A stretch of DNA of 64,000 nt from Owenia fusiformis. Its lineage: Eukaryota; Annelida; Polychaeta; Sabellida; Oweniidae. The position numbers and the translations under genes are program-made. The stretch covers positions 26,280,166 to 26,344,165 of the forward strand of contig CAIIXF020000011.1 of assembly GCA_903813345.2 (NCBI GenBank), given 5' to 3'. The notes under the pieces are model-generated. The model had not been told where the DNA came from, searched no databases, and saw only the letters and a list, made by a program, of their open reading frames with translations. The stretch's first letter is position 1. Every line of letters starts with the position of its first letter. Shown here one piece after another: positions 5,629-63,938 of the stretch.

Positions 5629-5630
5629 TA

Positions 5631-6417
5631 CAGGGCGTCCACAAAAAAGTATACCCAACTTCAAATCCAAATTACTACAATCCTTAGCAGTTTTTATAAA
5701 ATGCAAAGGTAGAAGTAAAAAGCCTGATTTATTCTCCATCAAATGGTACCAAGATCATTATGTAACTGTCATGTATGACTGAGCAATCTTGACCATTATG
5801 AGAGGTGGTAAAATTAGTGCCAACAAAAAGTTCTAAAAAGCAAGTCCCACGTACTGTGTATAGAACCCCTATTCTTACTATTGAAATGGATTCTAGCAAT
5901 ACTGACCCACATGAACTACTTGTTAAGACTCATCAAACTTGAGTTCTTCTGAGAAAATGAGGATTTCAACAAGGGATATTGAGTTTACATGGGATACAAT
6001 TGACTTCAAAGCTGCATATCGTCAAGTAGAAGTTTCATTGCTGATCAAGAAGCTCTTCAGATCCAATTTCTTGAGAGGGGGTACCAACTAAAAGTTATGG
6101 AAAGTTATGCAAAAGTATGAAGAACATGAAACAAGTTTGAATTTGAACATTAATAATGTTTTGAACACAAAAAACATCCACTGTGTCATTCCTACTTGAA
6201 TGCTAACTTGGCACAGTTCTGATTATCACACCTTTCATAAAAGTCATGATTGCTCAGTCATCCATGACAGTTACATAATGATCTAGGTACCATTGGATGG
6301 AGGACAAACTAGGCCTTTTACTGCTACCTTCATATTTTTTTAAAAATTGCTCAGAATTCTAGTAGGCTATAGTATCCTGGCTTTGAAGTTGGGTATACTT
6401 TTTTTGTGGACGCCCTG
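5631..6417. mobile_element. Non-autonomous mariner/Tc1-like element, 787 bp, TA duplication
   Basis: The termini are CAGGGCGTCCACAAAAAAG on the left and its reverse complement, with one extra A, on the right. TA lies immediately outside both ends (5629-5630 and 6418-6419). The inverted repeats extend to about 190 bp each and share GTATACCCAACTTCAAA, TGGTACC.AGATCATTATG and GTAACTGTCATG.ATGACTG. The ~400-bp centre has no long frame. TA target duplication and CAGGG-type ends are typical of the IS630-Tc1-mariner superfamily; the transposase source is not in the window. Confidence 0.85.
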
Positions 6418-6419
6418 TA

Positions 6420-7799: not shown

Positions 7800-9051
7800 T
7801 ACAGTAGCTAGGCAAGGTGTGTCTTATTCTAGCCAATCGGAACACAGCATTTCATGATCATATATTTTCAACCCACCCAGGTCATTTTCCGATTACACCT
7901 ATTTTAAAATTTCAAGTTGGCTGTTCTATTTACCCCCTCACATCTTGTATATTCAACAAAATGCAGACGGATACACATCAAAATGGAGAAGTTGCTATTC
8001 GAAGTTGGGAAATAAGTTCTGTTTAAGAATGAACTGACTCAAATTGAAAGAATATCTGAATATATCTGAGTAAAATTGAGATGCTGACAACATGACCCTT
8101 GGAAAAAGTTTCCTTGAAAACATGATCTTAAAAGTAATTTCGTATCTTTTAAGTGATATCGTATAAAATATTTGCAAGAATCTAAGCCCAAGACCCAATG
8201 AATTGTGGCTGATCCATTCCACCCAAGCGTTGTCATCTAAACTTAGCACTCGATGCTACGCATCTCGTACAAAGTTTGAAACAGCACCTTGAGGAATGAT
8301 AATCAGTCCACAATGCACTTAAAGATTCTCGCAATCTTTATCCAATCAGCGTTTGCGAGTGTGTCGGCTCACGTATAAAAGGCGAATCCAACTCAAATCC
8401 ATGCAGGGGTGTATGAGGTACTCGAATAGGAAAGAGCTCATGAAATCTGAATTTATATGCACATGGTCAATGTTTACACATGTTTGGAGTTATTGAAGAA
8501 AATGTGATATGGGTGTGGTTCCGAACTTGAAGTCATTGCTGGAAAATATGATTTTAATACGTGAAATTATATCTATAAATACAGCACTAAAAATAACAGT
8601 ACACATGAAGTACATGTATGATTGTGTTCAGAAATGTTTGAAACCCTTACGGAAAAGTCTGTCTGCATTTTGTCACCATTGCTCTTTCTTCCCGCATTCT
8701 AGTGCTGTTTGAATGAATATATTAATTAATGTATTTCTAACTAAAATATATCACATTTTTTTATAAACCACAAACATTTAGATCATAAAAAAATTATTCA
8801 ATACTTGAGTGAGCACAATATGCAAGGGTTACTAAGTTGACACAGTAAATGACCACTGATATTGTGCTAGTCCATGCACACAGCGTACACCCCTCACTTT
8901 CATAGTGAAGTGACTAATTGGTTTATGTTTATGTTTGAATGTGTTTTGGGTTCCTTGTTACAGCAAGGGGGGCCAGTAAAGTAGACTAACATGTTTGCAT
9001 GGCAAATTTTGATCGAATATGTGAGACACTTTAAGTGAATAACTTTTAATT
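7800..9051. other. No gene recognised
   Basis: Frames of up to 84 residues on both strands overlap each other and lack family features. No RNA gene or repeat was identified. Confidence 0.45.
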
Positions 9052-9188
9052 ATTTCCCAATTAAACAGTCTTCACCACAAACCACACAACATAATATCAC
9101 ATATATTATAGGATTAAATTCGAGCCAGCAGCCCGCGTTTATTGGAATAGCATTAAGTACATCGGATACAAAGAATGAGTGAAAAAAA
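9052..9188 (+). repeat. Dispersed repeat A, copy 1
   Basis: This ~137-bp block begins AATTATTTCCCAATTAAAC and ends in GAATGAGTGAAAAAA. It is nearly identical to copy 2 at 9758-9898 (about 706 bp downstream), and its first ~85 bp recur at 13689-13774. The segment between copies 1 and 2 (9189-9757) holds no gene; it has a short GC-richer patch near 9200-9340 with repeated GGCCACGATGCC words. Confidence 0.75.
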
Positions 9189-9757
9189 GAAAAAACGTAG
9201 CCAGGTCGCGATGCATCCAGGTACCCATGACGGCCACGATGCCAATGTCATAGCGGCCACGATGCCGATGGCATTAATGCCAGAAACCTCTGAGGTTCAA
9301 ATATACCCAACATCCATCCTCGGCTCCCAACCTCGCTGCTGATTTACGATGTTTAACTGCCTTCAAGGCATCAATAAGGCACCGTGTGCTTAATTAAAAC
9401 ATCTAAATACAACAACCCATATCTAATGATCAACTGTCATTAAAACCATTGTGGCTACACGTTTGTTAACATGTCAAAGACCTCAAATTAATTCACAAAT
9501 TTCGGAATAAACCAATTCTAAATTGTGACTATCTGTCAACTTGCAATATAAAAAACTTGTATAAGGACCATACATGTATATAGTGCCTTCTAGCACTATG
9601 CAAAATCTGTGAGTAACATGCCTCACTATCTAATACAGTAATCACGCACTGTCATAATACATAACAATAATCTAAATCACTGTCTACAGACTTGCACTTT
9701 AACCATAACATTGCCTTTTGGCAAAACACGTAACTCAGAAAGTTAATGAAACTTCCT

Positions 9758-9898
9758 TATTTCCTAATTAAACAGTCTTCACCACAAACCACACAACATA
9801 ATATCACATATATTATAGGATTAAATTCGAGCCAGCAGCCCGCGTTTATTGGAATAGCATTAAGTACATCTGATACAAAGAATGAGTGAAAAAAAAAA
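9758..9898 (+). repeat. Dispersed repeat A, copy 2
   Basis: A near-perfect direct copy of 9052-9188, differing by a few substitutions and the length of the terminal A run. It is followed directly by repeat family E (9899 onward), so A and E may be parts of one larger repeat unit; at 13691 the order is E then A. Confidence 0.75.
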
Positions 9899-9948
9899 GC
9901 AAAAGAACAATTCTTCGAAACGTTGTAAATCTAAATACTATCTGTTTA

Positions 9949-12821
9949 TAGTCTGGCAGAAACTTCAAAGCTAATCGTTTTCTTCGGATTACAATGTTTT
10001 TTTTAACTTATCAGCATGAATATAGGGTTGGGACCTCAAAACCATTGGATGCCGGAGCGGCACCCTTGGGCAACTCTCTACAGAGCATTTCTTATACCCC
10101 CCTGATAAAATATACAGGGGGTACTATATTAACTTGAAATTTTCAGGAATTGGTTTTAGTATGATGCTTGACACATGTGACAAAAATCAAGAAAAAATCT
10201 TAATCTGTTGCTATAGCAACAGAAATAGACACTATTTGTTACTGTAGAAATGCATTATTTTGCTGATTTTCAAAATTTTCTTCATATTCTTGATTCTTAA
10301 AGCACCTGAAGTATATACGTATCTGTTATGTACATGATTAGAAGTAAAGACGAAATAATTCATCATATGGTTTATGTAATATATCTAAAATTTCAGTTGC
10401 TATGGTAACATCACTTAATAATCAGGTTTTTACTTTTCACTTTCTTTAAAAAGGTGGTCCAAAATAACACTTCTTGAAAAGGTTATGCACCCTAGGTAAA
10501 AAAGTGCTGCTTTAGAGATAAATAGTCACATGAATTTGAAAAAAAAATTATAATTTAATTTTACCCCACCTCGACAACCACCAAATCTGGCAAAATAGAT
10601 TAATTTTCAAGGTTCAAATAAAAAATGCCCCCAGTGGCCCCCAGAAGCTATACCATGGACCCCAGTGGCCCCAGAAGCTATACAAGGCCCCCAGTAGCCC
10701 TAAGATGCTATAAGGTGGCCCCCAGAAGCTATACAGGGACCCCTAGTAGCCCCCAGGAGCTATATGGTAGCCCCCAGAAGCTATACAGGGGCTCCAAATG
10801 GCCCCTAGAAGCTATATGGTGACTTCCAGAAGCTATACAGGGGCCCCCAGTAGCCCCCAGAATCTATACAGTGGCCACTAGTGCCCCCTTAAAGCTATAC
10901 GGTGGCCCCAGAAAGCTATATGGTGGCCCCCAGAAGCATATCCAGCGGCCCCTAGTAGCCCCCAGAAACTATATGGTGGTCCCCAGTGGCTCCAAGAAGC
11001 TTTACAGTGGCCCCGAAAAGCTATACAGGGGCCCCTAGTGGCCCCAGGAAGCTATATGGTAGGCCCCAGAAGCTATATGATGGCACCCAGAAGCTATACG
11101 GTGGCCCCAAGTAGCCGCCAGAAGCTATAGGATGGCACCCAGTGGCCCCCAGAACCTATATGGTAGCCCCCAGAAGCTGTAAGGTGGCCCCCAATGGCCC
11201 CAAGAAACTATACAGGGGCCCCCAGAAGCTATACGGTGGCTCCCAAAAACTATATGGTGGCCCCCTGTGTCCCCAAGAAGCTAAACAGGAGCCCCCAGAA
11301 GCTATACGGGGACCCCTAGTAGCCCCCAGAAGCTATATGGTAGCCCCCGGAAGCTATACAGGGGCTCCAAATGGCCCCTAGAAGCTATATGGTGACTTCC
11401 AGAAGCTATACAGGGGCCCCCAGTAGCCCCCAGAATCTATTCAGTGGCCCCTAGTGCCCCCTTAAAGCTATATGGTGGCCCGGAAAGCTATATGGTGGCC
11501 CCCAGAAGCATATCCAGGGGCCCCTATTAGCCCCGAGAAGCTATGTGGTGGTCCCCAGTGGCTCCAAGAAGCTTTACAGTGGCCCCCAAAAGCTATACAG
11601 GGGCCCCCAGTGGCCCAAAGAAGCTATATGGTAGGCCCCAGAAGTTATATGATGGCACCCAGAAGCTATACGGTGGCCCCCAGTAGCCACCAGAAGCTAT
11701 AAGATGGCATCCAGTGGCTCCCAGAAACTATATGATAGCCCCCAGAAGCTGTACGGTGGCCCCCAATGGCCCCAAGAAACTATACAGCGGCCCCCAGAAG
11801 CTATACGGTGGCTCCCAAAAACTATATGGTGGCCCCCCAGTGTCCCCAAGAAGCTAAACAGGAGCCCCCAGAAGCTATACAGGGGCCCCTAGTGGCCCAA
11901 AAAAAGCTATACGGTGGCCTTAGAAGCTATACAGGGGCCCCTAGTGGACCCCAGAAACCATACGAGGGCCCCCAGTGGCCCCAGAAGTAAGCCCAAATTT
12001 TCACTGACAAAAAATTCACGATGTTGTCAATCTGAAATGTTTCATGGCCATTAAGTTTCACTGTTAGAGAAATATCCAATTGAATTCAATGTTAAATCAA
12101 ATATTCACAGTGCCTTTAAAAGCTATACGATGGTCCCCAGTGGCCCCCAGAAGCTATACAAGGCCCCCAGTAGTCTGATTGCTCAGATGAGGAAAGCCAA
12201 TGCTTAAAATTTAGACATTATGCCAAAATCTAGACTATGCCAACCTCTCTATTGTATAATTACATTAGATTTTATTATGATGCATGTTCTAAATGCCAAA
12301 GTCTAGACTATATGCCAACCTCTGCTACTGTATGAATTCATTAGATTTCACTTGATATACATGTATATACTAAATATAAAATATGCAGTGTCCTATATAT
12401 ATACTAGTGTAATACTTTATACTAGTTGAAGAATCAACTATATGAAGAAATGTTGAAAATTAGCAAAATAATGCATCTCTATGGTAACAAATAGTGTTCT
12501 GTTACTGTTGCTATAGCAACGGATTAAGATTTTTTCTTGATTTTTGTCATACATGTCAAGCATCATACTAAAACTAATTCCTGAAAATCTCAAGTTAATA
12601 TATTTATCAGTATCTGAGATATGAGGGTGTCTTATAGTACCCCCTGTATATTTTATCAGGGGGGTATAAGAAATGCTCTGTAGAGAGTTGCCCAAGGGTG
12701 CCGCACCGGCATCCGGTGGATTTGAGGTCCCAATCCTATATTCATGTTGATAAGTTAAAATAACATTGTAATCCGAAGAAAACGATTGAATGTCAAAATA
12801 CCCTATATTTCTGCCAGACTA
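9949..12821. mobile_element. 2873-bp TIR element carrying a minisatellite (PIF/Harbinger-like by TSD)
   Basis: The termini are TAGTCTGGCAG and CTGCCAGACTA. The inverted arms run about 350-390 bp (9949 to about 10300, and about 12421 to 12821), sharing for example GGGCAACTCTCTACAGAGCAT and GTTGCTATAGCAAC as inverted counterparts. TTA flanks both ends (9946-9948 and 12822-12824). The paralogous sequence at 24740-24820 runs through the same flanks with a single TTA (24787-24789) and no insert, so this is a pre-integration site. A 3-bp TWA duplication is typical of PIF/Harbinger, though the ends are not a textbook match. No transposase is present. The interior is a GC-rich tandem array plus a direct repeat of about 90 bp near 12215-12360. 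Confidence 0.9.
10625..11990 (+). repeat. GC-rich minisatellite (AGAAGCTATA-CCCC units) with higher-order period
   Basis: There are dozens of variants of a short unit built from CCAGAAGCTATAC, GGTGGCCCC and CAGTGGCCCC. A larger period of about 575 bp is visible: distinctive variants such as CCCAAAAACTATATGGTGG (near 11236 and 11811) and TGACTTCCAGAAGCTATACA (near 10820 and 11394) recur at that spacing. An outlying fragment lies at about 12115-12175. Open frames across it give repetitive Pro/Tyr/Gly-rich peptides in more than one frame; this is a property of the repeat and is not treated as a gene. The array lies wholly within the TIR element 9949-12821. Confidence 0.9.
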
Positions 12822-13691
12822 TTAATATAAAATGCAAATAGTTGACAAGCACTTCTCCTAATGTGTTTGTCACACTGATATAACACAACTACTGTAAATG
12901 TTGTAAAGAAACACAACTATCAACTAAATTACCAAAATTGATGCCCTTCTGGAAATAGATATTACATATCTAAAAATATGAAGGACTTTCGGATATAATC
13001 AATATCTTTAAAAGCAAAACTTTGTGCCTTCCTCGAAACAATATGACAGAAACGCACTTAAATACATATTTATTTAATTAGATTCAATGCGCTGTCAGTA
13101 AAAAGCCATGCCTTGAGTTTCAGATGTATATGCACATTACATAATTGCTTCTTAGAAACCTAATATCTAAATGTTTTAATTAACTTAATTAACATCCTAT
13201 GCTATGCAATGCTTTGTAATAATTGCAGAAAAATATACTTCCCAAAATAGTAATTATTGGGAACAGGTTACATCAACGTCAGCACACGTATACTTCATTC
13301 AAAAACGTTGGTTTGGTCAATAGCACTAAAGAAAGTGTTCGTTGACTTCAATATGAAAAACTTTAGTTTATCGACCTGACACCGTTAAAACCCAGATCAA
13401 AATCTTTGTGACTTTCGAAAGGGAAAAAGGTATGCCTCCTCGAACAATAAAACTAAATTTTCGAATCGGTTGTATGACAACTTACAACATTAACTAAAAC
13501 TGTGTATAAACGCTTCGGTTGCTACTCGCAGAATAACACGATCCCATCGTGCATCCACTCACATAACCTACTCATGATCACATCATGTTATCCAATCAGT
13601 TGAAATCGCGTTCGATTTCACTAACGCTAAGACGTTATATCAACCGGAAATAAAATAATTCAACTCTAATTTCAAACGTGTTGAATTTTAA
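12822..13691 (+). repeat. Dispersed repeat E, copy 1 (right part; left part 9899-9948)
   Basis: With the TIR element removed, 9899-9948 joined to 12822-13691 aligns with 24740-25516. Compared with that copy, this one has an extra ~145 bp (about 13122-13266). The 3' segment from ACTGTGTATAAACGC to GTGTTGAATTTTAA is present a third time at 24384-24583. It includes a perfect stem GAAATCG/CGATTTC with a 4-base loop near 13602-13620. Function and class are unknown. Confidence 0.75.
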
Positions 13692-13774
13692 TTATTTCCT
13701 AATTAAACAGTCTTCACCACAAACCACACAACATAATATCACATATATTATAGGATTAAATTCGAGCCAGCAGC
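13689..13774 (+). repeat. Dispersed repeat A, copy 3 (truncated)
   Basis: It matches the first ~85 bp of 9052-9188 up to GAGCCAGCAG, then diverges. It begins exactly where repeat E ends. Confidence 0.7.
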
Positions 13775-14354: not shown

Positions 14355-14890
14355 AATAGACTTTTACGTCAGAGTTCGAACTGTACTGCATCAGAACAAC
14401 TGCTCGACGTAATGGCTACAATGCCAAACATGATAACAATTTTTACGTCGGAGTTCCAACTGTACTACAACAGAACAACTATTCGACGCACTGGAAATAA
14501 TGCCAAACATGACAACAATATTTACGTCGGAGTTCCAACTGTACTTCAACAGAACAACTATTCGACGTTCTGGTAATTATGCCAAATATGATAACAATTT
14601 TTATGTCGGAGTGCCAACTGTGCTTTAACAGAACAACTACTCAACGTAATGGCCATAATGCCAAACATGTTCAATATAGAATGCAATTAGCTGATGAACA
14701 CTTCTCTAATGTGTTCGTCACACTAATATCATAAATGTTGTTAGGAACACAACTATCATCTTAAAACCATATTAACTACTATTCGACGTCATGGCTATAA
14801 TGTCAAGCATGACAACAATTTTTATTCAACAGAACAACTACTCAACGTAATGGCTATAATGCCAAACATAATAACAATCCTCAGTCCGAG
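14355..14890 (+). repeat. Minisatellite, ~79-bp unit
   Basis: TTTACGTCGGAGTTCCAACT and variants recur near 14361, 14440, 14519 and 14598, each followed by CAACAGAACAACTATTCGACG and ATGCCAAACATGA. The array is interrupted at about 14674-14765 by a fragment of repeat E (compare 24785-24895) and resumes to about 14890. The 135-residue frame 14169-14576 runs through this array and the previous one, and is repeat-derived. Confidence 0.75.
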
Positions 14891-17022: not shown

Positions 17023-18402
17023 TTACTGATAGAAGTAATTCTTTATCTATATAATCATGGATGAAAAAAGTCTTATTTATATGCTTAATTTTCTTAGAAA
17101 TGATCAGCATTACTACTAATAATAACATTTTGCATGTCTGAGTAAGTTTTTTGATCTACATTTAGGATAAATGTTGTTTTATTCAGTTTCCATTTTGGTT
17201 ATGACTTCCTGTCAAAACAGTGTTAAAAATGCAGGGCTCAACAAAAATTTTCAATTAGAAAATGATATATATCCTTTGATCAGCTGTTTTTGGCACCTGA
17301 ACTCATCCTACTAGATAGGTAAGAGCATTTTCTTGAGACATATGGCTCGAAATCTCATATTTCTCCTTCTAAGTCTTAGAAAGACACTTTAATGGCATTT
17401 TGATATTTCTAAATATGAATGAATGTTTTGAGTAGCAAACGAAGATGTTTGCGATAACATGTAGCTCACAAAAATTCATTATGAATCTGTCGAATCAAAG
17501 TATCCTCTTGATAATAAAAGATATGAAAATACAAGTGTACAATTTCACTTGCAGGATGTGAAGTATCCAAGGTGTATGTCTGAATCCAACCTTCCCAGTA
17601 ACGATTCACGACAATTAATGTCTGTTCTAAATACATAATACGCGTTATTAGCTAATAACTTAAATGGTATACCAATATGGCTCACCAATCGACGACATTT
17701 AACAATTCAATGACTCTTCAGTAACACAACCCGTTAGTTGTTAGTCATGACTTACAACATTAAAATGCTTACGTTGCACAACTTTATACAAAAACTATAA
17801 TTGTAATATCTATCTCTGTATATGCGCAACACAGAGTTCATTTGAAAAACGTTTGCTATAAAATATCATTTTAAAAATCTTTGCCCAACGCTGTTTTTTG
17901 CAAAACTGAGGGAGCATATTTGCACCTTGCTAATACCATGTCTGAAACAACTTAACAATCCTAAAACCGTAACTCCGGTTTAAAAACTGCCACATCTAAA
18001 TAGGATGTTTGTTTGTATGGATCCCATCTCCCTAAAAACACCTAAAATGCAGTTTATACAAATCATCGGAAAACGTACCAGTTTGCGTCGTTACCTAAAC
18101 ATCTGAAAGATTTCAAAAACATGAACATTTTGACAGTCAAGTTACAAATATCCAACGTATGTCGCAGTGTGGCGTCTTGCCCGTGACTGAACAATAGATC
18201 TTGCAATCTTTAGTGCTCCTGCACCTATGACCAATCTAAATATGTTTAGCAAAACCCAGTATCCTTACATTAAAAAAAGGGATATTTGATATACTGAGCA
18301 AATCTGTTAACAACTACTTATCTTATTCATTGCGATAGCTGAACCCTCCTTGTTTAGCGTTACTCACAATCCAAACATTGGCCCTCAGCGTTACTTCTTC
18401 TC
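17023..18402. other. No gene seen; LINE 5' region begins somewhere here
   Basis: AT-rich up to about 18330, where composition becomes more balanced just before LINE ORF1. The 5' end of the LINE was not located: no copy of the sequence following its 3' tail (ACTGGAACTCAAACG) was found upstream. Confidence 0.4.
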
Positions 18403-18477
18403 ATGCACCGGCGCACCTCTCGGGTAGCGTCGCATCTTTCGATGTTACTGGTATACGGCCCAGCCTCAGCTAGGGGA

Positions 18478-20091
18478 ATGGAACAAACTTTGGATATTAA
18501 ACCGAAGAAAAGGCAGGGTGAGACAAAGCTTATCAGTCTTTCTAATGACATTTATGAACTTTACGTCTATGTTAGAGGTCATGTTGAAGATTTTCCTAGA
18601 GGTGTTCTTGGGACTACTAGCAAAATCCCTGAACTAGTTACCCTCGCAATACATCGCGGGAAACAAGTACCACGTCAGAATACTGTCATACAGCCATCGT
18701 TATTGGACTTATCTGCCAAATACACTGAACTCTCAATGGACTTTCGCAAGGTTGTGGCAGATATTGAGATTTTGAAGCGTTCATATCAAGGAAAAATTGA
18801 CAATTTAGAGAAAGAGATTTTGGGCCTTAAACGGGATGTAGGTCAGCATATATGTTCATGTTCGAATTCTGCACCTTGCCTCGGAAGTCAAGGTGCTAAG
18901 GAATCCAATCGGGCCAATCAAGCTAATGAAACCTCTAGAACAGTGCGAACATTCGAACCTATAAAGGCAATTAGCCCACGAAGGCAATCGATTGCCAGCA
19001 ATGATATTGCTATTGCTCAAGAGGAAGTAATAAATCAGTCTGTCTCTACTCACCTGAGGCCGAGAAATGTTAAAAACTTACACGATAAGCCCGCTTTACT
19101 AAATGATGCCAATTTAGCCAATGCCTTGGTGAACAATCGCATTAATATGGACGTAGTTGAATTGCCAGTAGCAAACAGTTTTGCCGCCCTTGCATTCGAT
19201 GAGGAATTAGCACCTCGCGATCAACAGCTAGACTCAGCCGTTCAAAAAACACGGAATGAAGCCAATTTACCCGAGGTACGACCTGGAAGCTCTACATGCG
19301 CTCCAACTGACGGGGACATGGTCCAGTGTAAAAAACAAGATGGCGGTATAGCGAAAATGGGATATGCGGCTCAAGGCGAAACTGTCAGCAGTCTTAATGA
19401 TATTATGGCTCTAGACAAAGCTGATCGTGTATCTAGCAAGGAGTCTGATTGGAATGTGATTTTGTCGCGACGAACTAAAAGAAACAACAGCGCTCCGTCT
19501 TCTAACACCGGCCAGATCACCCCAGCTTTGACATTTGCGGGGGTAGTTAAAAAGCCAAAGCCAAAGCAAGCACCTGTAAAAACGCCGAGCACAAGGATTC
19601 ATAAGGCCGCCAGAAGCTTACGAGGTGCGTTTAATGAAAGGACAATGACATTATATCTCGAAAACATTGCAAAAGATGATGTAGAATCAGACGAAGACAT
19701 TATTCTCCAGGTGAAGGAATGTGCTACTACAAATGGCATATCTATCAGACAGTGTCACGTGGTTCATAATCGGTTCAGCCCCAATCGCGTGGGCTGTAAG
19801 ATAGTTGTCCCACAGGCTGAGGTAGCGAAATCCGTGGACCCAAATACTTGGCCTGATCCGGTTCATTGCCGAAAATGGGAATTTGCTTCGAGACGCAAGA
19901 GAACCACTTACCAGAATTTCAAGCGTAGTTTGGCTAACGAAAATCTGAACGATGTAAATTATGATAACGCGAGTCAGGACCATTTAGACTATGATGACAT
20001 ATATGAATCAACGAATGAATACCAAATGAGGTCAAGGTGGGGCACGCGTGGTAATAACTTTGTTTTAAACCAAGATGAACATGAAAGTTAA
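18478..20091 (+). CDS. LINE ORF1 protein
   Basis: The frame is open from 18403; the ATG at 18478 (codon 26 of that frame, sequence GGGGAATGG) has the better start context and begins MEQTLDIKPKKRQ. Counting from 18403, residues about 105-145 have the heptad pattern of a coiled coil, fitting the trimerising role of LINE ORF1 proteins. The middle (about 150-400) is low in structure and rich in Asn, Ala and Ser. Residues about 405-500 form a compact domain with LYLENI, DEDI, GCKIVVP and WPDPVHCRKW, resembling the RRM-like nucleic-acid-binding region of ORF1 proteins in other invertebrate LINEs. It probably coats the element RNA. The C-terminus is acidic and Asn/Tyr-rich. The stop overlaps the ORF2 start. 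Use of 18478 as start is an inference. Confidence 0.8.
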   Translation: MEQTLDIKPKKRQGETKLISLSNDIYELYVYVRGHVEDFPRGVLGTTSKIPELVTLAIHRGKQVPRQNTVIQPSLLDLSAKYTELSMDFRKVVADIEILKRSYQGKIDNLEKEILGLKRDVGQHICSCSNSAPCLGSQGAKESNRANQANETSRTVRTFEPIKAISPRRQSIASNDIAIAQEEVINQSVSTHLRPRNVKNLHDKPALLNDANLANALVNNRINMDVVELPVANSFAALAFDEELAPRDQQLDSAVQKTRNEANLPEVRPGSSTCAPTDGDMVQCKKQDGGIAKMGYAAQGETVSSLNDIMALDKADRVSSKESDWNVILSRRTKRNNSAPSSNTGQITPALTFAGVVKKPKPKQAPVKTPSTRIHKAARSLRGAFNERTMTLYLENIAKDDVESDEDIILQVKECATTNGISIRQCHVVHNRFSPNRVGCKIVVPQAEVAKSVDPNTWPDPVHCRKWEFASRRKRTTYQNFKRSLANENLNDVNYDNASQDHLDYDDIYESTNEYQMRSRWGTRGNNFVLNQDEHES

Positions 20092-23000
20092 TCAATTAAC
20101 AATCAGCGCATGGAACGCTAATGGCTTGGGGACTTCATGCCCTTATCTTAAAACACTGCTATCTACTTCTGATATTGTATGTTTAAGTGAACATTGGTTA
20201 TATGAGAGTGGACTTGATAAGCTACGTAATTTTGATGATGATTTCGACTGTCTGGCCGTGAGTTGTAGTACGTTGAATTCCCTTGATCAGGGGTATTCGA
20301 TTGGAAGTGGTGGTGTCGCAATATTATGGAGACGCTCATTTTCTAGTATTATCCATCCTCAAAAAAGGTTAACAAACAGTGACCGATTTGTAATTGTAAA
20401 GATAATGGAACCAGGTTGTAAATGTTTATATATTGTCTCTGTCTATTTACCACAACGTAATTGTAAAACTTCAAATTTTGCAGAGGTAATTGATGAACTT
20501 GAGGAGTCTTTGAGCTCAATGAAGCAGGATGGAGATGTATTGCTGATAGGTGATGTTAATGCACATTTAGGGTGCTTATATGGCACTCGAGGTTCTGGTA
20601 AGATGAATAGGCATGGCAAATTACTTCATAACATGTGTATTAGGTGTAATTTAAAGGTAGTAGATCTTACAAACAAATGTACAGGTCCCGAATTTACGTT
20701 CTATAGAGAATATATTGGGAAATCCTATATTGATCACTGTCTAATTTCTGAGGAATGTCTAAATAGAGTAAAACATGTAAAGGTTCTTGATGAGGAACTG
20801 TTAAATACATCCGATCATTTGCCATTGCAGGTTGTTCTGGAGACTTCACCCACGGTGCCAATCACACACTCTACTGACAACACGACGGGTGCCAAACTGG
20901 CCTGGGAAAGATTTGATGCAGACGCAATCATTGAGAGATACACAATACCCCTTGGGAAAAAGGTACTTGACATTGTTGAGCGTTATGAGGCTAGGCATAA
21001 TTTATCAAACGAGGATTTAGATAAATGTTTTGATGAGCTTACTGTTACTCTGAAAGCTGTGTCTAATGAAGCTATTCCAAATAAGCGCTTTCAAAGACAC
21101 TTAAAGCCATACTGGACAGATGTCCTGAATAATCTATCGGGTGAAAAAAAGGCAGCGCACAGGTTATGGAAATCAGAAGGCAGGCCAAGAGATGCGGGTA
21201 ATGCTATTTGGATTAGGTACAAGGATACAAAGCGTAAGTTACGGAAAGAATTGAGGAGGGCGGAATATGCTTATGAGATGGAATGCCAAAATGAGATAGA
21301 CAATGCAAATGAGATCAGTATGAATCATTTTTGGTTTATAGTTAAGAAACGCAGAAAAGGAAAGAATAGTGGGAACTCGATCAGGAGTGACGATGGCACC
21401 ATACTGACGCAGGATGATGAGATTCGTAATGAGTGGATGACGTATTTCAAAACCTTAATGTCTTCTAAAGACGATGATAATTTTGACAGTGAACATCAGC
21501 GATATGTCGATGGGATGGTTAATGAAATGATGGAGCAGAGTAAGTTGAATGAGGATGAAGCCTTTAAGGAACCAATTAGCGAAGATGAAATGATGACGCT
21601 GATCAACTGTCTCTCAAGAAATAAAGCCACCGGATGGGATGGTATAAGCTCTGAGCATATACGGTTTGGGGGGCAGGTTGTAGTCAGATTACTTGTTACT
21701 TTATACAATGGTATTGTAAGTCTGGAGTATATACCAAGCAGCTTCAAATTGGGAGTGCTTTTACCAATTTTTAAAGGTGGAAACAAGGACAGTTTGGATA
21801 AAGACAATCATAGAGGGATTACTCTCATGACTACTTTCATGAAGCTACTAGAGAGGCTTATGATCAATAGGAGTAGGCGTGCACCAAGGAGCGAACTTAG
21901 ATGTAACATGCAAGCTGCAAATGAGAGTCAGGTGTCATGCCTCCATACGGCCTTTCTAACAAGGGAAGCAATAAGTCACGGCCTCGAGAATGGGGAGGAT
22001 GTTATTATCGTGGCTATTGATATTAGAAAAGCATTCGACACCGTGTGGCACAATGGCTTAATGTTTAAAATGTACAATATCGGAATCAATGGGAAATTGT
22101 GGAGACTATTGAGATTGTGTTATAACGATTACAAATGCGCCGTAAGATGCAATGATATGAAGCTCTCTGACCCGTTTAGCATCACCCAGGGTGTCCACCA
22201 AGGCGGACTCTACTCCATGGAGCTGTATGGGCAATACATGAACAGGCTATTGCTGAACATCATACAGTGCTCTAAGGGCTGCTCTGTAGGAGATATAATC
22301 TGTACGTGTCCCTCGTATGCGGACGATACGGTAATTATTGGTTATCACAAGAAGTCTGTACAGGAGGTGTTGAACTTAATGTACGATTATAGTTTGAAAT
22401 GGCGTTTTAACTTCCACCCTGACAAGTGCAAAGTGATTGTGTTTAGCAACAGGAGGGTACATGATCTTAAAATGGACCTTTTCTTTGGTAATAAAAAGCT
22501 TCAAACTGTAAACTCCACCCAACACGTTGGCCTCCCTCTTTCTAACTATAACAGCAACAAGGAGCTGATTGATACAGCTTTATCCAAAGGCAGGCGCGCT
22601 ATGAATGCGTACGTAGGTACTACAACGCATATGAAAAATGCTACAAATCCACTTACAGCCTCTAAATTGTATTGGTCCGTAAGCATTCCGTCGATAACGT
22701 ATGGCATGGAATTGGTGCCTCTTAGTGAGGCAGACTATAGAGCCTTAGACCAGGGCCATCGTAGCATATGTAAAAAGATACAAGGGTTACCAGTTCACAC
22801 ACCTGACGCAGCTGTTCTACCCCAGCTAGGATGGCAGACGATAACTTCAACAATTATAATCGCCAAATTGATGTTTTTGTGGCAGTTATTGTTTCTAATA
22901 TCTGGGTCTGTGTATCGCAGCATTGCTATCAAGAGAATTACAATGTACAGACATGGTGTTAAACTTAACAGACTGTCACCGTTGCGAGACATAATGGAGC

Positions 23001-23566
23001 TTGTGAATCGATATGGAATGACAGACATGATATATCAAGTACTGGACAATGGTGCAAATCCATCAAAATTGACATGGAAACGCCATGTGCAGAATGTGAT
23101 AAGGAATTGCGATTTGGATGGTTGGAGACACGAAGTTAACACATATAAAGAACTAACACTCTATAAGGAAGTTATCCAATGTGTGAAACCCTGTATATGG
23201 TGGACAATAGCTAGGAGTGATTCAAGGTTCATTAAAAGATGCAACTTAATGGTACGCTTAATGGTCGGACAAGGCCGCTTAAGAATTAACACAGGCGAAT
23301 GGGAGGGGATACCGTTGAGAGATAGGTTTTGTGAGAGCTGCTATGAGGAAATTGAAACGCTTGAACACTTTGTCTTAAAATGTAGACTGCACAATAGGGG
23401 CACATTAAATACAATTCTAGATGGAGTACCAAACATTAGTGCAATGTCAAATTCAATGAAACTGCGAGCTCTCTTCGGGGGAGACAACTGTATTAACGAA
23501 AGTGGACTTAAACGTGTGAGCACTATTATACAGAACATGTACCTCGCCCGGATTGGAGTCAATTAG
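20075..23566 (+). CDS. LINE ORF2: AP-type endonuclease and reverse transcriptase, 1163 aa
   Basis: It starts with ATG at 20075 inside the last codons of ORF1 (17-base overlap, different frame), which suggests termination-reinitiation. Residues 8-255 are an exonuclease-endonuclease-phosphatase domain with the expected active-site residues: N14 (SAWNANGLG), E39 (CLSEHW), Y124, D160 and N162 (GDVNAHLG), D220-H221 (YIDHCLI) and S246-D247-H248. The reverse transcriptase spans about 540-830: LPIFKGG near 562, AIDIRKAFD near 646, QGVHQGG near 708 and the catalytic YADD at 748-751. A C-terminal C-x2-C-x8-H-x4-C knuckle begins at C1086. The enzyme would nick target DNA and copy element RNA from the 3' nick. 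There are no stops or frameshifts. Frames on the opposite strand are shadows. Confidence 0.95.
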   Translation: MNMKVNQLTISAWNANGLGTSCPYLKTLLSTSDIVCLSEHWLYESGLDKLRNFDDDFDCLAVSCSTLNSLDQGYSIGSGGVAILWRRSFSSIIHPQKRLTNSDRFVIVKIMEPGCKCLYIVSVYLPQRNCKTSNFAEVIDELEESLSSMKQDGDVLLIGDVNAHLGCLYGTRGSGKMNRHGKLLHNMCIRCNLKVVDLTNKCTGPEFTFYREYIGKSYIDHCLISEECLNRVKHVKVLDEELLNTSDHLPLQVVLETSPTVPITHSTDNTTGAKLAWERFDADAIIERYTIPLGKKVLDIVERYEARHNLSNEDLDKCFDELTVTLKAVSNEAIPNKRFQRHLKPYWTDVLNNLSGEKKAAHRLWKSEGRPRDAGNAIWIRYKDTKRKLRKELRRAEYAYEMECQNEIDNANEISMNHFWFIVKKRRKGKNSGNSIRSDDGTILTQDDEIRNEWMTYFKTLMSSKDDDNFDSEHQRYVDGMVNEMMEQSKLNEDEAFKEPISEDEMMTLINCLSRNKATGWDGISSEHIRFGGQVVVRLLVTLYNGIVSLEYIPSSFKLGVLLPIFKGGNKDSLDKDNHRGITLMTTFMKLLERLMINRSRRAPRSELRCNMQAANESQVSCLHTAFLTREAISHGLENGEDVIIVAIDIRKAFDTVWHNGLMFKMYNIGINGKLWRLLRLCYNDYKCAVRCNDMKLSDPFSITQGVHQGGLYSMELYGQYMNRLLLNIIQCSKGCSVGDIICTCPSYADDTVIIGYHKKSVQEVLNLMYDYSLKWRFNFHPDKCKVIVFSNRRVHDLKMDLFFGNKKLQTVNSTQHVGLPLSNYNSNKELIDTALSKGRRAMNAYVGTTTHMKNATNPLTASKLYWSVSIPSITYGMELVPLSEADYRALDQGHRSICKKIQGLPVHTPDAAVLPQLGWQTITSTIIIAKLMFLWQLLFLISGSVYRSIAIKRITMYRHGVKLNRLSPLRDIMELVNRYGMTDMIYQVLDNGANPSKLTWKRHVQNVIRNCDLDGWRHEVNTYKELTLYKEVIQCVKPCIWWTIARSDSRFIKRCNLMVRLMVGQGRLRINTGEWEGIPLRDRFCESCYEEIETLEHFVLKCRLHNRGTLNTILDGVPNISAMSNSMKLRALFGGDNCINESGLKRVSTIIQNMYLARIGVN

Positions 23567-24383: not shown

Positions 24384-24583
24384 GCTAAAACTGTGTATAA
24401 ACGCTTCGGTTGCTACTCGCAGAATAACACGATCCCATCGTGCATCCACTCACATAACCTACTCATGATCACATCATGTTATCCAATCAGTTGAAATCGC
24501 GTTCGATTTCACTAACGCTAAGACGTTATATCAACCGGAAATAAAATAATTCAACTCTAATTTCAAACGTGTTGAATTTTAAT
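24384..24583 (+). repeat. Dispersed repeat E, copy 3 (3' ~200 bp only)
   Basis: It is almost identical to 13492-13691 and 25318-25516, running from CTAAAACTGTGTATAAACGC to GTGTTGAATTTTAA. All three copies stop being similar at the same point, which marks the family's 3' boundary. Confidence 0.8.
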
Positions 24584-24739
24584 TCCTTAATAGACTGTCG
24601 TAATATGCGACATTGTTGGTCACAAAAGACAAAAATTCCGTGATTATCACAATAATACACGACCGGACTACAAAAATCATACGCTCTTCTAAAACTATTG
24701 TGATGAATTAATACAAATTTATCTCGTATTGCAACAAAA

Positions 24740-25516
24740 GCAAAAGTACAATTCTTCGAAACGTTGTAAATCTAAATACTATCTGTTTAATATAAAATGC
24801 AATTAGTTGACGAGCACTTCTCTTAATGTGTTTGTCACACTGATATAACACAAATACTGTAAATGTTGTTAAGGAACACAACTATCATCTTAAAATACCA
24901 AAATTGATGCCCTTCTGGAAATAGATATTACATATCTAAAAATATGAAGGACTTTCGGATATAATCAATATCTTTAAAAGCAAAACTTTGTGCCTTCCTT
25001 GAAACAATATGACAGAAACGCACTTAAATACATATTTATTCACTTAGATTCAATGCGCTTTCAGTAAAAAGCCATGCCTTGAGTTTACAGGTTACATCAA
25101 CGTCAGAACACGTATACTTCATTCAAAAACGTTGATTTGGTCAACAGCACTAAAGAAAGTGTTCATTGACTTCAATATGAAAAACTTTAGTTTATCGACC
25201 TGACACCGTTAAAACCCAGATCAAAATCTTTGTGACTTTCGAAAGGGAAAAGGTATGCCTCCTCGAACTATAAAACTAAATTTTCGAATCGGTTGTATGA
25301 CAACTTACAACAACATTAACTAAAACTGTGTATAAACGCTTCGGTTGCTACTCGCAGAATAACACGATCCCATCGTGTATCCACTCACATAACCTACTCA
25401 TGATCACATCATGTTATCCAATCAGTTGAAATCGCGTTCGATTTCACTAACGCTAAGACGTTATATCAACCGGAAATAAAATAATTCAACTCTAATTTCA
25501 AACGTGTTGAATTTTA
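24740..25516 (+). repeat. Dispersed repeat E, copy 2 (empty site for the 2.87-kb element)
   Basis: It aligns with 9899-9948 plus 12822-13691. The left 50 bp have one difference from copy 1, and the junction reads CTGTTTAATATAAA with a single TTA at 24787-24789. It also lacks about 145 bp present in copy 1 between GCCTTGAGTTT and CAGGTTACATCAACG. Confidence 0.85.
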
Positions 25517-27590
25517 AGTAATTAAACCGGTAGTGATTTTACGTCATCTTCCCAGTTGGTGGCAAATAATTCAAAATGGTCATCGTTTTTATTGCTGGAA
25601 AATCACATTCGTTATGATGATCACGTACCACACGTTTGAATGTGGTCACGAGAATAGAAAATGTGAGCCCGGTTCGTACTGCTACATAGGCAATTTACTA
25701 ATTTGAAACATAGCAAAATGAAGTTCTTGAATTATTTTGAATTTCAACTATCGAATTCAATATCTTGAATAACTAGCTAGTCGGAGAAATGTTCACAAAA
25801 ACAATGGCTCCAACTTATATAATATAGGGAAGTCCAAATAGGGTTTAATTAAAATATATCATTTATTCAAAAAGAGACAATTCGTACCACACAGAGTAAT
25901 CCACGCCGAGTGTTTTCTGCAGGCCAAATCTGCATAGGGTATTTACAGATGTATCATTCTGTCTGTAATTCCCAAACTGAATTGATAAAAGAATAAAATG
26001 ATTGGTCGACATGCCCCGCCATTATGAGAAATCCTTTAATCGACATAATCTAAAACTACTCATCTAAATAGGGCGAAGTGACTTCCTGAGAAAAATGTAT
26101 TTATTCTTAGTACAATACCAGCTGGCCGTAACCTCACATAATCGTAATCCTTGGTCCGTGACAATGTTTGTATCCGTTTCCTATTATCTGTTGGCCTACA
26201 TCTGAAGGAGTAAAAATGGGCGAAAACCGCTAAATTACAAGTTTCTATTTGAAAATCATATGAGATTTTACAATCGGGTAGATCTTTTCGCAGACAGACC
26301 TAACGAGACCGAATTACGTAAATCCTTTGCTACACAGGGTGTCCCATAAGTAATGATGATTATGGTCTAAAATTGCTATTTGATAAGGAAATAAAACGCT
26401 GAACAGTTTTCAGTAGAGGAGCCTACAAAAAACGATAAGCGTTAATAGGAACATTTCGCGAACGTTTATGAACGTCGAGAAATCACTCTTTAGAGTGAAA
26501 AGAGGAAGATATTCTGAATTTTGACGCTCCTGTGATCGGAGGATGGAGCCTTTCCAAAGCTATAATTTTTCTCGTCTGAAAGAGTATATCAAGTCAAGGT
26601 AGAGCATACAGAAAATGATGATTACGTCGAAAACAATAAAGAGCGAAAAAGATAAGTTGGCAATTGACAGTCACTGACCGTATTACATACTAATAATCTA
26701 AAAACAATTAATTTAGGTTGTGTTCTATGACATTGATCTTGGGGGAATGTCCGAGAGATATTGTCAATTCTCTCGCAAACAAGATTTTCTATTTTAGCTG
26801 ACTTCTACATTAATTACATTACGTTTTCTAAAACCAAGTGGAATTTGCGACGGATACTTTGAATATATAGACTAAAGCTAGAGGTCGATCTAACATTAAT
26901 GCAATGTGAAGAATGTGTTTTTAGCCATATCGAATAGATTTCTTAGATGGCCATTTATTAGTTATAAATATGCTTTCATTACTTGAAAAATTGGAATGAG
27001 AAAACCATGCAGCAGACTATTTGGCAGTCATTACATTATTGTTGGGGATTGGTTAGATGATGGTGGTTGATAATCTGGACCATTGAATCGCCTAGTTTTC
27101 TACGAGCGATAAAATGAATACGTTCGGATAGACAAAACGTTATATCAAAAAAAGTTCGGTTTGTTATCCGTCTCCGTTTTTAGTACCCTTTCATTTTGTT
27201 TTCTATGTTCGTTATGTAAAAATAATTTGCATTAAAAGTTGTACGGAAATTACCACCAACAGTACAAAATCGAAGATATCATTACAATAAAATATTATAA
27301 AGATAACAGAACAAAATCACTTAAAATTAGCATAGGACATTTTTAGTTGAACGTAACCTAATTTGACGTAAATATCCCATTAGTTAACATCTCAATAAAG
27401 GTTGAAGGCAAAACGACACATTCGTCTCTTTGTCACATAACTTTTATTTTCAACATACGATATTAAGGTGATGTCATTCTGGACGATTGTTAATTTACCG
27501 TTTAAAACTAGAAAATACATAAAAGTTTATACCAAGTCAGGTGTATAACACAAATTGATAAATCACATACTTGGGATAGGGATGATATCA
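25517..27590. other. No gene; one solitary mariner-like end at 26335
   Basis: AT-rich sequence. CAGGGTGTCCCATAAGT at 26335-26351 looks like a mariner-type terminus, but no matching inverted end was found downstream, so it is probably a truncated relic. Nothing else could be supported. Confidence 0.45.
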
Positions 27591-32165: not shown

Positions 32166-33297
32166 AAGATATTTGGAGCTAAAACATGAACAACATACAT
32201 CATTTTCATCGGAAAGCATTATCACTGTGCATCGAAATCAAAATTGCTAACATAGTATTCAATAGTCATGAGTACAATGATTTCCGTTGACACCAATGTG
32301 AAATTTCAAATTTTCCGTTCTTAACACGAACTTGTGAAACTGAACAGGTATCTGAAGTAGACTATTAGTAAGTAAAAACGCTTGTTTTGTATGAGCGCCA
32401 GATACACATTCCTATATTGATTCATGGCGTACTTTCCGTTCACGGTTACGTCGTCGAAAAACAGTGCAAGCTTAAAGTCTCCATTTAGGCGTTTGGATTG
32501 TTAGACATAATGAAGTATGATATTGTCCATGAACTTTATCAGATTAAGCCAAAGCCTGAAATGGAGTTCCTAATAACAAAAACTTGTGATTCTATAACTT
32601 GATATTTTCTGTAAATTCTCTTGTTTCCACCTTGCATATTGCATTTTGAAATCTCATCAGTTAAAATACGAACGACGTATTCTTTTCGCTAGTAAACTAC
32701 TTCGTTACCGTAGTGACGTTGGCCGTTAACTATTAAGAGACATGATGTAAAGAACTTAATGTGATGCAAACTACTTCTCTAAATACCATGAAGTATAAGG
32801 TCAATATAAGCTAAGTTTATTATGATCCATATCTGAGAATCGTCACTTGTCGGCATTTAAATGAAATCCTGACATGCCTGATATGGTTTAGTTCTTTAGG
32901 TTCGATCTTGTTGAGTATGTTTCCCTTAAGCTGAATCATGTATCTTTTCATGGCTTTGAAGGCCGCCTAGTCGAATCCTTTTGAGTTTTACTTTTCAAAT
33001 ATATCCAATGGTAGTCGTCTCACACTTTCATGCTAAGTGTGTACTTTCGAATTGAAGACGTTTGGCCTACATACAACTTATTGTTGAATTTCTAAAAAAT
33101 TCATAATCAACCACGAGCCATATATTTGATTTACGTTAGAGCAGCTTAGCCCGGATCAAGATATCTCATATTTTGTCTTTTCGACACATTGATAGTGATA
33201 GTCAAGTTGTTAGAGTTATAACATATTCCGAAATGACCAAAGATTTAAGAACTTTGTTACTTCATTTCATGCTGAATGTCATCACTGCATATCTTAC
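32166..33297. other. No gene or repeat recognised
   Basis: AT-rich sequence without supported features. Confidence 0.45.
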
Positions 33298-33950
33298 GTT
33301 GAATCGTTTGATTGTTGAATTATACCAGTGCATCTATTCGAATTAGATCGTTTGATCGTTGAATGATATAACAACATCAATTGAACATTGAATCGTTTGA
33401 TTGTTAAATGATTGAACATTGGATACCACAACTGCATCAATCAAACATTAGGTCGTTTGATTGTTGAATGATCACTGCATCAAATTAACATCGAATCGTT
33501 TGATTGTTGAATGATCACTGCATCAAATTAACATTGAATCGTTTGATTGTTGAATGATCACTGCATCAAATTAACATTGAATCGTTTGATTGTTGAATGA
33601 TCACTGCATCAAATTAACATCGAATCGTTTGATTGTTGCATGATTACTGCATCAAATTAACATTGAATCGTTTGATTGTTGAATGATCACTGCATCAAAT
33701 TAACATTGAATCGTTTGATTGTTGAATGATACAACTGCATCAATTAAACATAGGACCGTTTGATTGTTGAATGATACAACTGAATCAATTAAACATTGAA
33801 TCGTTTGATTGTTGAATTCACCAATTGAATTATACCATCAATTAAACACTTGATCGTTTGATTGTCAATTAATGATACAACTGCATCGATTGAACATAGG
33901 ACCGTTTGTTTATTGAATGCTACCGCTGCATCAATTGAACATTGGATGAG
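33298..33950 (+). repeat. 43-bp minisatellite
   Basis: The unit is built from TGAATGATCACTGCATC, AAATTAACATTGAATC and GTTTGATTGT. The central copies (about 33436-33720) are nearly identical, with exact 43-bp spacing (for example GAATCGTT at 33493 and 33536). Edge copies are diverged and vary in length (ACAACTGCATCAATTAAAC variants). Scattered decayed units continue at about 34137-34262. It is not a CRISPR: the copies are head-to-tail without unique spacers. Confidence 0.9.
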
Positions 33951-34518
33951 TTTATATTTATGGAATCTGGGTAATCTCAAAGTTGACAAACAATATTTGA
34001 AACCATGTTTTTAGATGTAATTTGAAATGTAAATATCACTTTGATTGAATTTTGAATACTTAATGATGTAAGCCAAAATTATTTCTACTCGCATCTAGTC
34101 TAATGTTGTGTGCTACCACAGCATACTTTGTACATTAACTCATTTGATTCCTGAATGATACTACTGCATCGATTAAACATTTGATCGTTTGATTGTGAGT
34201 TTATTTACCACTTCAATATTTGTACGTTAAATCATTTGACTGCTGAATGATACCCCGATTGCACTGTTGAATGATATGAGGTAATTTACTATTAAAAAGA
34301 GTAACAAATGAAGTGTGGTATTAAACTATCCAAGTGCATAATAACACATTTGTTAGAAACTAAACACGATGAAATAATGGACTAAATCTCCTGTTTCAAT
34401 ATAAATGGTTTTGTAACCCAAGTAGAAAATTAATGACCGTGAAACTTCTATTGCCGTAGTACCTAACACCAACGTTTAACAAAAGACGAATCACAAAATA
34501 CAGTGACAAACAAAACCG

Positions 34519-62393: not shown

Positions 62394-63938
62394 CAGGGTG
62401 GGCCAAAAAAACACACCCCTAGCCGATATTCCTGATAAATATTCATTTTTTAACATGTACACCAACAATGATATATCATTTTAAAGACAATTTGCAACAA
62501 AATGATATATAATAGAACCATTTTCAACAACCCAACATAGAAATATAATCAATTATGTGACATGGGGGTCAAAAAACACCTTTTCAATTTTCATCGATTT
62601 CGCGAACAATCGCCTATTTCTACCAAATTTTACCGTTCAATCAAAAATTGCAACATTGTCATGAGTCTTTCATAATTGGATATTATATATTGTTTTCATT
62701 CAGTTTTTGAACCATGCATGCTCAATAAACATGTGTATGCTTATAAAACAAATTCATTTCTTCTTCAGTCTGTCCAAATATGACTCAATAGACCCACCCC
62801 TGGACTCACCTTTTGATCGGATTATTCGCTAAATACGCGAAAGAAATTGGTATAATTGATGGATCTCTGCGAAAGTACCACCAAACTCCTAATTATTTAT
62901 TCTTTCAGTTTGTCTACATCCCTGATAGGCTAGTGATCTTCATAGACCAACTGTTCTAAATGCCTCAAGTACTATACATATAATCAACAGGATAGACTCT
63001 ATATATCAGTAAGCAAGAATAGGGACATTTGCGATAAAAGACTACTCAAATCGATTTTCTGAAAGGATAGTGGTGTCCACTCGGTGTTTCCCAAAAAGGA
63101 AAGACCGTACAGGCCCTGTTTTTGTTGAACCAGGAGCAAAAATATACTCTGAATGTTAATGACATGAGGTGTTAAAAAGGACTCCTCAAAAAACAGGTAA
63201 AAGAAATTTCATTTTCTGATAGGAAAGTGCTTCATCACACAGGTCCAATGCTACCCTGGAGTTTTTGGAGATTCGAAATGACACCATCTCGATCTAGCCC
63301 GGACAAATGGCTTACTGGCAGTCCAGATGCCAATAATGTTGATAACCATACCTGGGGGCATCGAGAACAGTTGGTATTTAAAGATACCCAACCTATCAGG
63401 GATGTGAAGGAACTAAAAGAAAGAATAACTAGCAGTTGAATGGTACTTCCACACACATCCATCAATTATGCCATCAACCAATGGCTTACGCGTCTTAAGC
63501 GAATAATCCGATCAGAGGATGGGTCTGGGGGGTTGGTCTATTGAGCCATATTTGAACAGACTGGAGAAGAAATTAATTTGTTTTATAAGCATACACATGT
63601 TTATTGAGCATGCATGGTTCAAAAACTGAATGAAAACAATATATTATATCCAATTATGAAAGACTCATGACAATGTCGCAATTTGTAACTGGTAAAATTT
63701 GGTAGAAATAGGCTATTGTTCGCAAAATCGATGAAAATTGAAAAGGTGTTTTTTGACCCCCATGTCACATAATTGGTTATATTTCTATATGGGGTTGTTG
63801 AAAATGGTGCTATTATATATCATTTTGTTGCAAATTAAATTGTCTTTAAAATGATATATCATTGTTGGTGTACATGTTAAAAAATAAATATTTATCAGGA
63901 ATAATGGCTAGGGGGGTGTTTTTTTACCACCTCGCCCA
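62394..63938. mobile_element. Mariner-like element with ~430-bp inverted arms
   Basis: The left end CAGGGTGGGCCAAAAAAACAC follows TA (62392-62393). The right end is decayed (GTGTTTTTTTACCACC), so its boundary is approximate. Arms from 62394 to about 62830 and about 63510 to 63938 are inverted copies; shared blocks include GATCGGATTATTCGCT, ATTTCTTCTYCAGTCTGT and GTGACATGGGGGTCAAAAAAC. Between the arms is a broken transposase. The element lies upstream of the 62172 exon, probably in an intron of the SRCR gene. Confidence 0.8.
63070..63439 (+). pseudogene. Mariner-type transposase remnant
   Basis: Conceptual reading in changing frames gives GPVFVEPGAKIYSE, then HRSNATLEFLEI in a second frame, then WLTGSPDANNVDNHTWGHRE and TQPIRDVKELKERIT. 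These correspond in order to the second half of a mariner/Tc1 catalytic domain; active relatives have SPDLNP.D..IWG before the third acidic residue. At least two frame changes and several stops show it is dead. The N-terminal DNA-binding half was not recognised. Confidence 0.75.

Follow-up and report, generated by a model that had tools for sequence, protein, structure and literature searches.

The segment at 9949-12821 of the analysed window (the whole stretch of DNA, 64000 bases, GC 0.357) is a transposed element of 2873 bp with terminal inverted repeats (TIRs) and a 3-bp duplication of its target, TTA. We hold with high confidence that it is a non-autonomous cut-and-paste transposon of foldback-like structure, mobilised in trans at TTA, and that the minisatellite it encloses was most likely aboard when it landed. 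The element is real and ordinary in kind, such elements having been reported, in the portions of the literature cited below, from plants, frogs, flies, moths and oysters. The merit of this copy is its clean empty site.

Empty site, target duplication and terminal repeats

Both boundaries of the element were fixed to the base by comparing its junctions with an empty paralogue of the host repeat (24740-25520, + strand), identified by BLAST and alignment. The left junction reads GTTTA|TAGTCTGGCAGAAA and the right junction TTTCTGCCAGACTA|TTAATATA. Across the insertion point, the filled copy reads TGTTTA-element-TTAATATA, with TTA on each side (9946-9948 and 12822-12824, neither assigned a strand), while the paralogue reads TGTTTAATATA, with a single TTA at 24787-24789. 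At this one site the target duplication is of fixed length, TTA being present twice in the filled copy and once in the paralogue, and the TTA parse of the junctions required no additional change at the empty site. The first-pass annotation had placed the boundaries at 9949-12821 and had read one TTA in the paralogue and two in the filled copy; the comparison bore out the former to the base, and the alignment agreed with the latter.

The host repeat lies on the + strand to the left (9899-9948, 1/50 mismatches against 24740-24789) and to the right of the insertion (12822-13693), where about 142 bp at 13121-13262 are present in the filled copy and absent from the empty one. Alignment of these flanks with the paralogue at 24740, as the first-pass annotation had suggested, was continuous through the insertion point, with 20 of 779 aligned bases mismatched (97.4% identity; 1/50 in the left part, 12/299 and 7/430 in the right). 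The view that mobility can be seen directly was upheld for one event, one copy having been seen.

The outer 14 bases of the left end (9949-9962, + strand) match 12808-12821 exactly in inverted orientation (14/14 bp), at both exact boundaries. At this base composition the chance of a perfect 14-bp inverted match is about 1e-8, the boundaries having been set independently by the empty site. The element termini are TAGTCTGGCAG; the ends read 5'-TA..TA-3', and the parse that needs no alteration of the empty site makes T the first TIR base. The inverted arms occupy 9949-10301 on the left (353 bp, gapped, + strand) and 12426-12821 on the right (- strand). Inside the 14-bp ends the arms do not match over 10 bases (left) and 20 bases (right), after which pairing resumes at 9973, 9973-10301 pairing in gapped form with 12426-12787. 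The alignment comprised 345 aligned bases with 24 mismatches and 6 gap openings, the left arm being without about 34 bp that are present in the right arm, and it scored 490 as compared to a maximum of 35 among 200 random pairs of window pieces. An earlier description of inverted arms of ~350 bp was fair as to length, but the arms are interrupted and not continuous.

Other repeats lie near the host copies. A three-copy repeat (9044-9191, 9757-9898 and 13686-13774; aligned lengths 83 to 142 bp, identity 97.9-100%) flanks the filled host repeat on either side, an arrangement suggesting that the region has undergone nested or tandem duplication. At 24385-25525, direct repeats of ~206 bp, 98% identical (2/200 compared bases mismatched), flank the empty-site repeat; because they stand on both sides, this repeat may in turn be a mobile element, one that carries direct repeats at its termini. 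At 14362-14766, a 79-bp tandem array is followed by a host-repeat fragment of ~99 bp (14668-14766) and afterwards by array-like sequence. The fragment begins three bases ahead of the position of the element's target TTA; it was rejected as an independent empty site, having the 79-bp array on its left and TCA at that position.

Coding capacity and the mobilising enzyme

One stop-to-stop frame of at least 100 aa overlaps the element; it does so in the right arm, and it gave no Pfam match. The unique stretches of the element (324, 129 and 253 bp) are too short for a whole transposase. The Pfam search covered the 18 stop-to-stop frames of at least 100 aa in the window (ten at E up to 0.001 and eight at E up to 0.1), a set that shorter, broken or intron-split genes would escape. 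No transposase family was among the matches of these 18 frames, and neither a DDE transposase nor a Myb/SANT match was obtained from them; the window's frames include a rhodopsin-family receptor and SRCR, which, with the non-LTR retrotransposon described below, make an animal the likely origin of the DNA, and three more matches were under their family cut-offs and unrelated. Within the frames tested, which were those of at least 100 aa, the element has no transposase gene of its own and is non-autonomous.

The ends would be bound by a transposase provided in trans, which would excise the element and insert it at TTA, cut with a stagger of 3 bp. Gap repair would give rise to the TTA duplication, the duplication itself being observed.

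PIF/Harbinger is the leading candidate for the superfamily of this enzyme, with about an even chance of being correct and with TTA as the single feature behind the label. The first-pass annotation had named a PIF/Harbinger-type transposase acting in trans. In its favour, TTA fits the TWA duplication given for 214 PIF/Harbinger families (PMC4482050), and members with internal tandem repeats exist (PMC2213677). Against it, the 18 frames of at least 100 aa yielded no transposase family, and the first TIR base is T, where the sections consulted of PMC4482050 give A or G as usual (typical, not strict). The same source puts about 93% of PIF/Harbinger TIRs below 60 bp, as compared to arms of ~350 bp here. 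The PIF/Harbinger members of Medicago start with GG or GTG, and the motif G(N)5GTT served to mine them, according to the part of PMC2213677 used here; this motif is absent from the element.

Another group with 3-bp duplications, namely AcademX, Zator or KolobokP, is possible and appreciably less probable than PIF/Harbinger. Duplications are 3 or 4 bp in AcademX and 3 bp in Zator (PMC10045372), and solo KolobokP ends are flanked mainly by 3-4 or 4-5 bp (PMC9587614). For groups without target preference, however, TTA would presumably be a lucky draw, and the KolobokP termini given in PMC9587614 are 5'-RR..YY-3', as against 5'-TA..TA-3' in the element. Among the molluscs covered by one study, Academ, Sola and Zator seem to be confined to bivalves (PMC10294476).

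That the element is Tc1/mariner-like (TA) or ISL2EU-like (AT), its paralogue having since been altered, is very improbable. Shortening the TIR by two bases or one allows TA or AT to be read at both junctions, but the TA parse then implies an empty site that is 5 bases too long and the AT parse one that is 3 bases too long; Tc1/mariner was rejected on the extra 5-base change needed at the empty site, and ISL2EU on the extra 3-base change. A Mutator-like foldback of the Tetris type was rejected on its duplication (3 bp here versus 8-10 bp, PMC4079207), and a Helentron HINE on the TTA duplication and terminal repeats of the element (HINE features as described in part in PMC7492417).

Two further inverted-repeat structures were observed in the window. 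The one at 5629-6419 has the ends TACAGGGCGTCCAC with TA on both ends, and it is probably a Tc1/mariner-type MITE. The other, at 62397-63931, has arms of ~570 bp that are about 87% identical and ends GGTGG..CCACC, at which no clear target duplication was seen.

The minisatellite, its origin and its age

Between the arms, a left unique region (10302-10625, 324 bp, no strand assigned) is AT-rich (GC 0.287) and without an open frame of at least 100 aa. It is followed by the minisatellite (10626-11987, + strand), built of 21- and 31-bp monomers that mostly alternate (a 52-bp dimer), with a GC of 0.566 versus 0.323 in the host repeat. No stop-to-stop frame of at least 100 aa, among the 18 of the window, lies inside the array. 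Motif-anchored searching gave 51 array hits in 10621-12200, and the 48 monomer spacings counted were 20-21 bases in 22 cases, 30-32 in 24 and 53 in two. The enclosed GC-rich tandem array of the earlier description was confirmed by these hits and by the base composition.

At a higher order, a segment of 572/573 bp is present twice in succession (10702-11273 and 11275-11848, both + strand), its copies differing at 30 of 570 bases. A non-repeated spacer of 129 bp (11988-12116, no strand) separates the array from a detached piece at 12117-12172 (+ strand), which contains two of the motif hits. This piece differs from the array start at 7 of 61 bases in a comparison covering part of the array (10641-10702); because of the resemblance, the array or its edge has probably been rearranged once. 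The right unique region (12173-12425, 253 bp, no strand) contains two 24-nt sequences (83%) at a distance of 76 bp, a pair which by eye belongs to a longer imperfect duplication. Elsewhere in the window, at 33270-34250, a 43-bp tandem array was seen at 33431-33817 (8.9 copies with 92% matches), its neighbours being diverged.

The pattern of the minisatellite suggests that it expanded by unequal exchange or slippage, including the duplication of the 572/573-bp segment. A seeding of the array from the hairpin of the TIR arms, with which it has TATACAGGGG in common, is doubtful; a similar arm origin has been proposed for the Tetris repeats. The 10-bp exact match had a score equalled by 7 of 300 shuffles (left part) and by 9 of 300 (right part), these two parts being the same arm sequence, inverted, and a permissive alignment score was equalled by 33 of 1000 shuffles. 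This was, however, the best of eight comparisons (four regions by two strands) and was not significant after correction; the remaining six comparisons were equalled by 119 to 294 of 300 shuffles.

The usefulness of this copy lies in its paralogous empty site, which fixes the ends and, if it was never filled, bounds the time of insertion, so that it becomes testable whether the array is older or younger than the jump. The copies of the array segment differed at 30/570 bases (5.3%) and the arms at 24/345 (7.0%), as compared to 20/779 (2.6%) for the host copies (Fisher test versus host copies, p = 0.0125 for the array and p = 0.0012 for the arms). When the 200-bp host stretch repeated at 24385-24584 was left out, the host copies differed at 18/579, with p = 0.077 for the array and p = 0.0086 for the arms. 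On the assumption that the paralogue was never filled, the insertion cannot predate the separation of the two host copies. Since the divergence of array segments and arms exceeds that of the host copies, the arms very probably diverged before the insertion, and the array segment copies probably did so too, which would make the array a cargo. This dating assumes equal mutation rates, and gene conversion between the host copies would bias the test.

The dating fails if the paralogue was once filled and then lost the element through precise excision, in which case the array may have arisen after the insertion; we consider this unlikely. The higher divergence of arms and array segments would also be expected if the insertion preceded the host duplication, but a footprint-free event is required, and a never-filled paralogue is simpler. 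Going by the divergences, we prefer the reading that the minisatellite was most likely aboard before landing and moved as cargo.

Copies, known systems and the neighbouring retrotransposon

BLAST of the element against the 64-kb window gave no match beyond the element itself, and the exact terminus was present in the window only at the element's own two ends. Scans of viral contigs for one pattern from the arm and two from the array gave no match, nor did one scan of genome contigs. A 16-base terminus pattern had one match in each of 7 viral contigs, with similarity there no longer than the pattern, a 19-base arm pattern matched one viral contig over 21 bases, and a 20-base arm pattern matched two Paenibacillus genome contigs over exactly those 20 bases. 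Other BLAST pieces in the ten matched loci were of 27 bases at most (E 0.57 or worse). We read these isolated short matches as chance. Literature searches with the terminal 11-mers gave no transposon title among the matches listed. It is improbable that the element represents a TTA-targeting lineage not yet described, with TAGTCTGG termini and an arm-hairpin-seeded minisatellite now spread genome-wide as cargo; were this so, it would provide a datable series of mobile arrays.

Array-carrying elements are one route of satellite spread; for the present element, one copy of which was seen, such a role is putative. The PIF/Harbinger-like subfamily MtPH-A6-4 of Medicago truncatula likewise consists of TIR elements and belongs to a group with 3-bp TTA/TAA duplications. 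In the account given in part in PMC2213677, 18 of its 23 members have imperfect 60-bp tandem repeats, numbering 2 to 35, which in extreme cases fill nearly all the space between the TIRs. It differs in its TIR start (GGCTTTGTTTG), in having the repeats in one or both subterminal regions, in being from a plant and in that some members encode the transposase (PMC2213677). In Xenopus, tandem repeats are tied to inverted-repeat elements, as here, in Xmix (Xstir repeats) and the miDNA4 MITEs; the review's table places miDNA4 in Tc1-Mariner and gives Xmix without a superfamily, and its list includes Xstir, miDNA4, the lepidopteran (GTCY)n and others (PMC9659126).

Tetris and the oyster HINEs are looser parallels. 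Tetris of Drosophila virilis has long TIRs, internal tandem repeats and, in the description cited, no conserved open frames, as does the present element, but its duplications are of 8-10 bp, Mutator is its suggested superfamily and its repeats of ~220 bp lie within the arms (PMC4079207). The first-pass annotation had offered it as a parallel, which is loose given the length of those duplications and the central position of the array here. The Cg_HINE Helentrons of the Pacific oyster are also non-autonomous, with a central tandem array and empty sites that were checked, and differ in being of rolling-circle type, with subterminal inverted repeats and, in the passages cited, no target duplication found (PMC7492417).

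The window also holds a non-LTR retrotransposon at 18358-23566, with two long stop-to-stop frames of 577 and 1165 aa, the second of which contains endonuclease and reverse transcriptase domains. The retrotransposon may be young.
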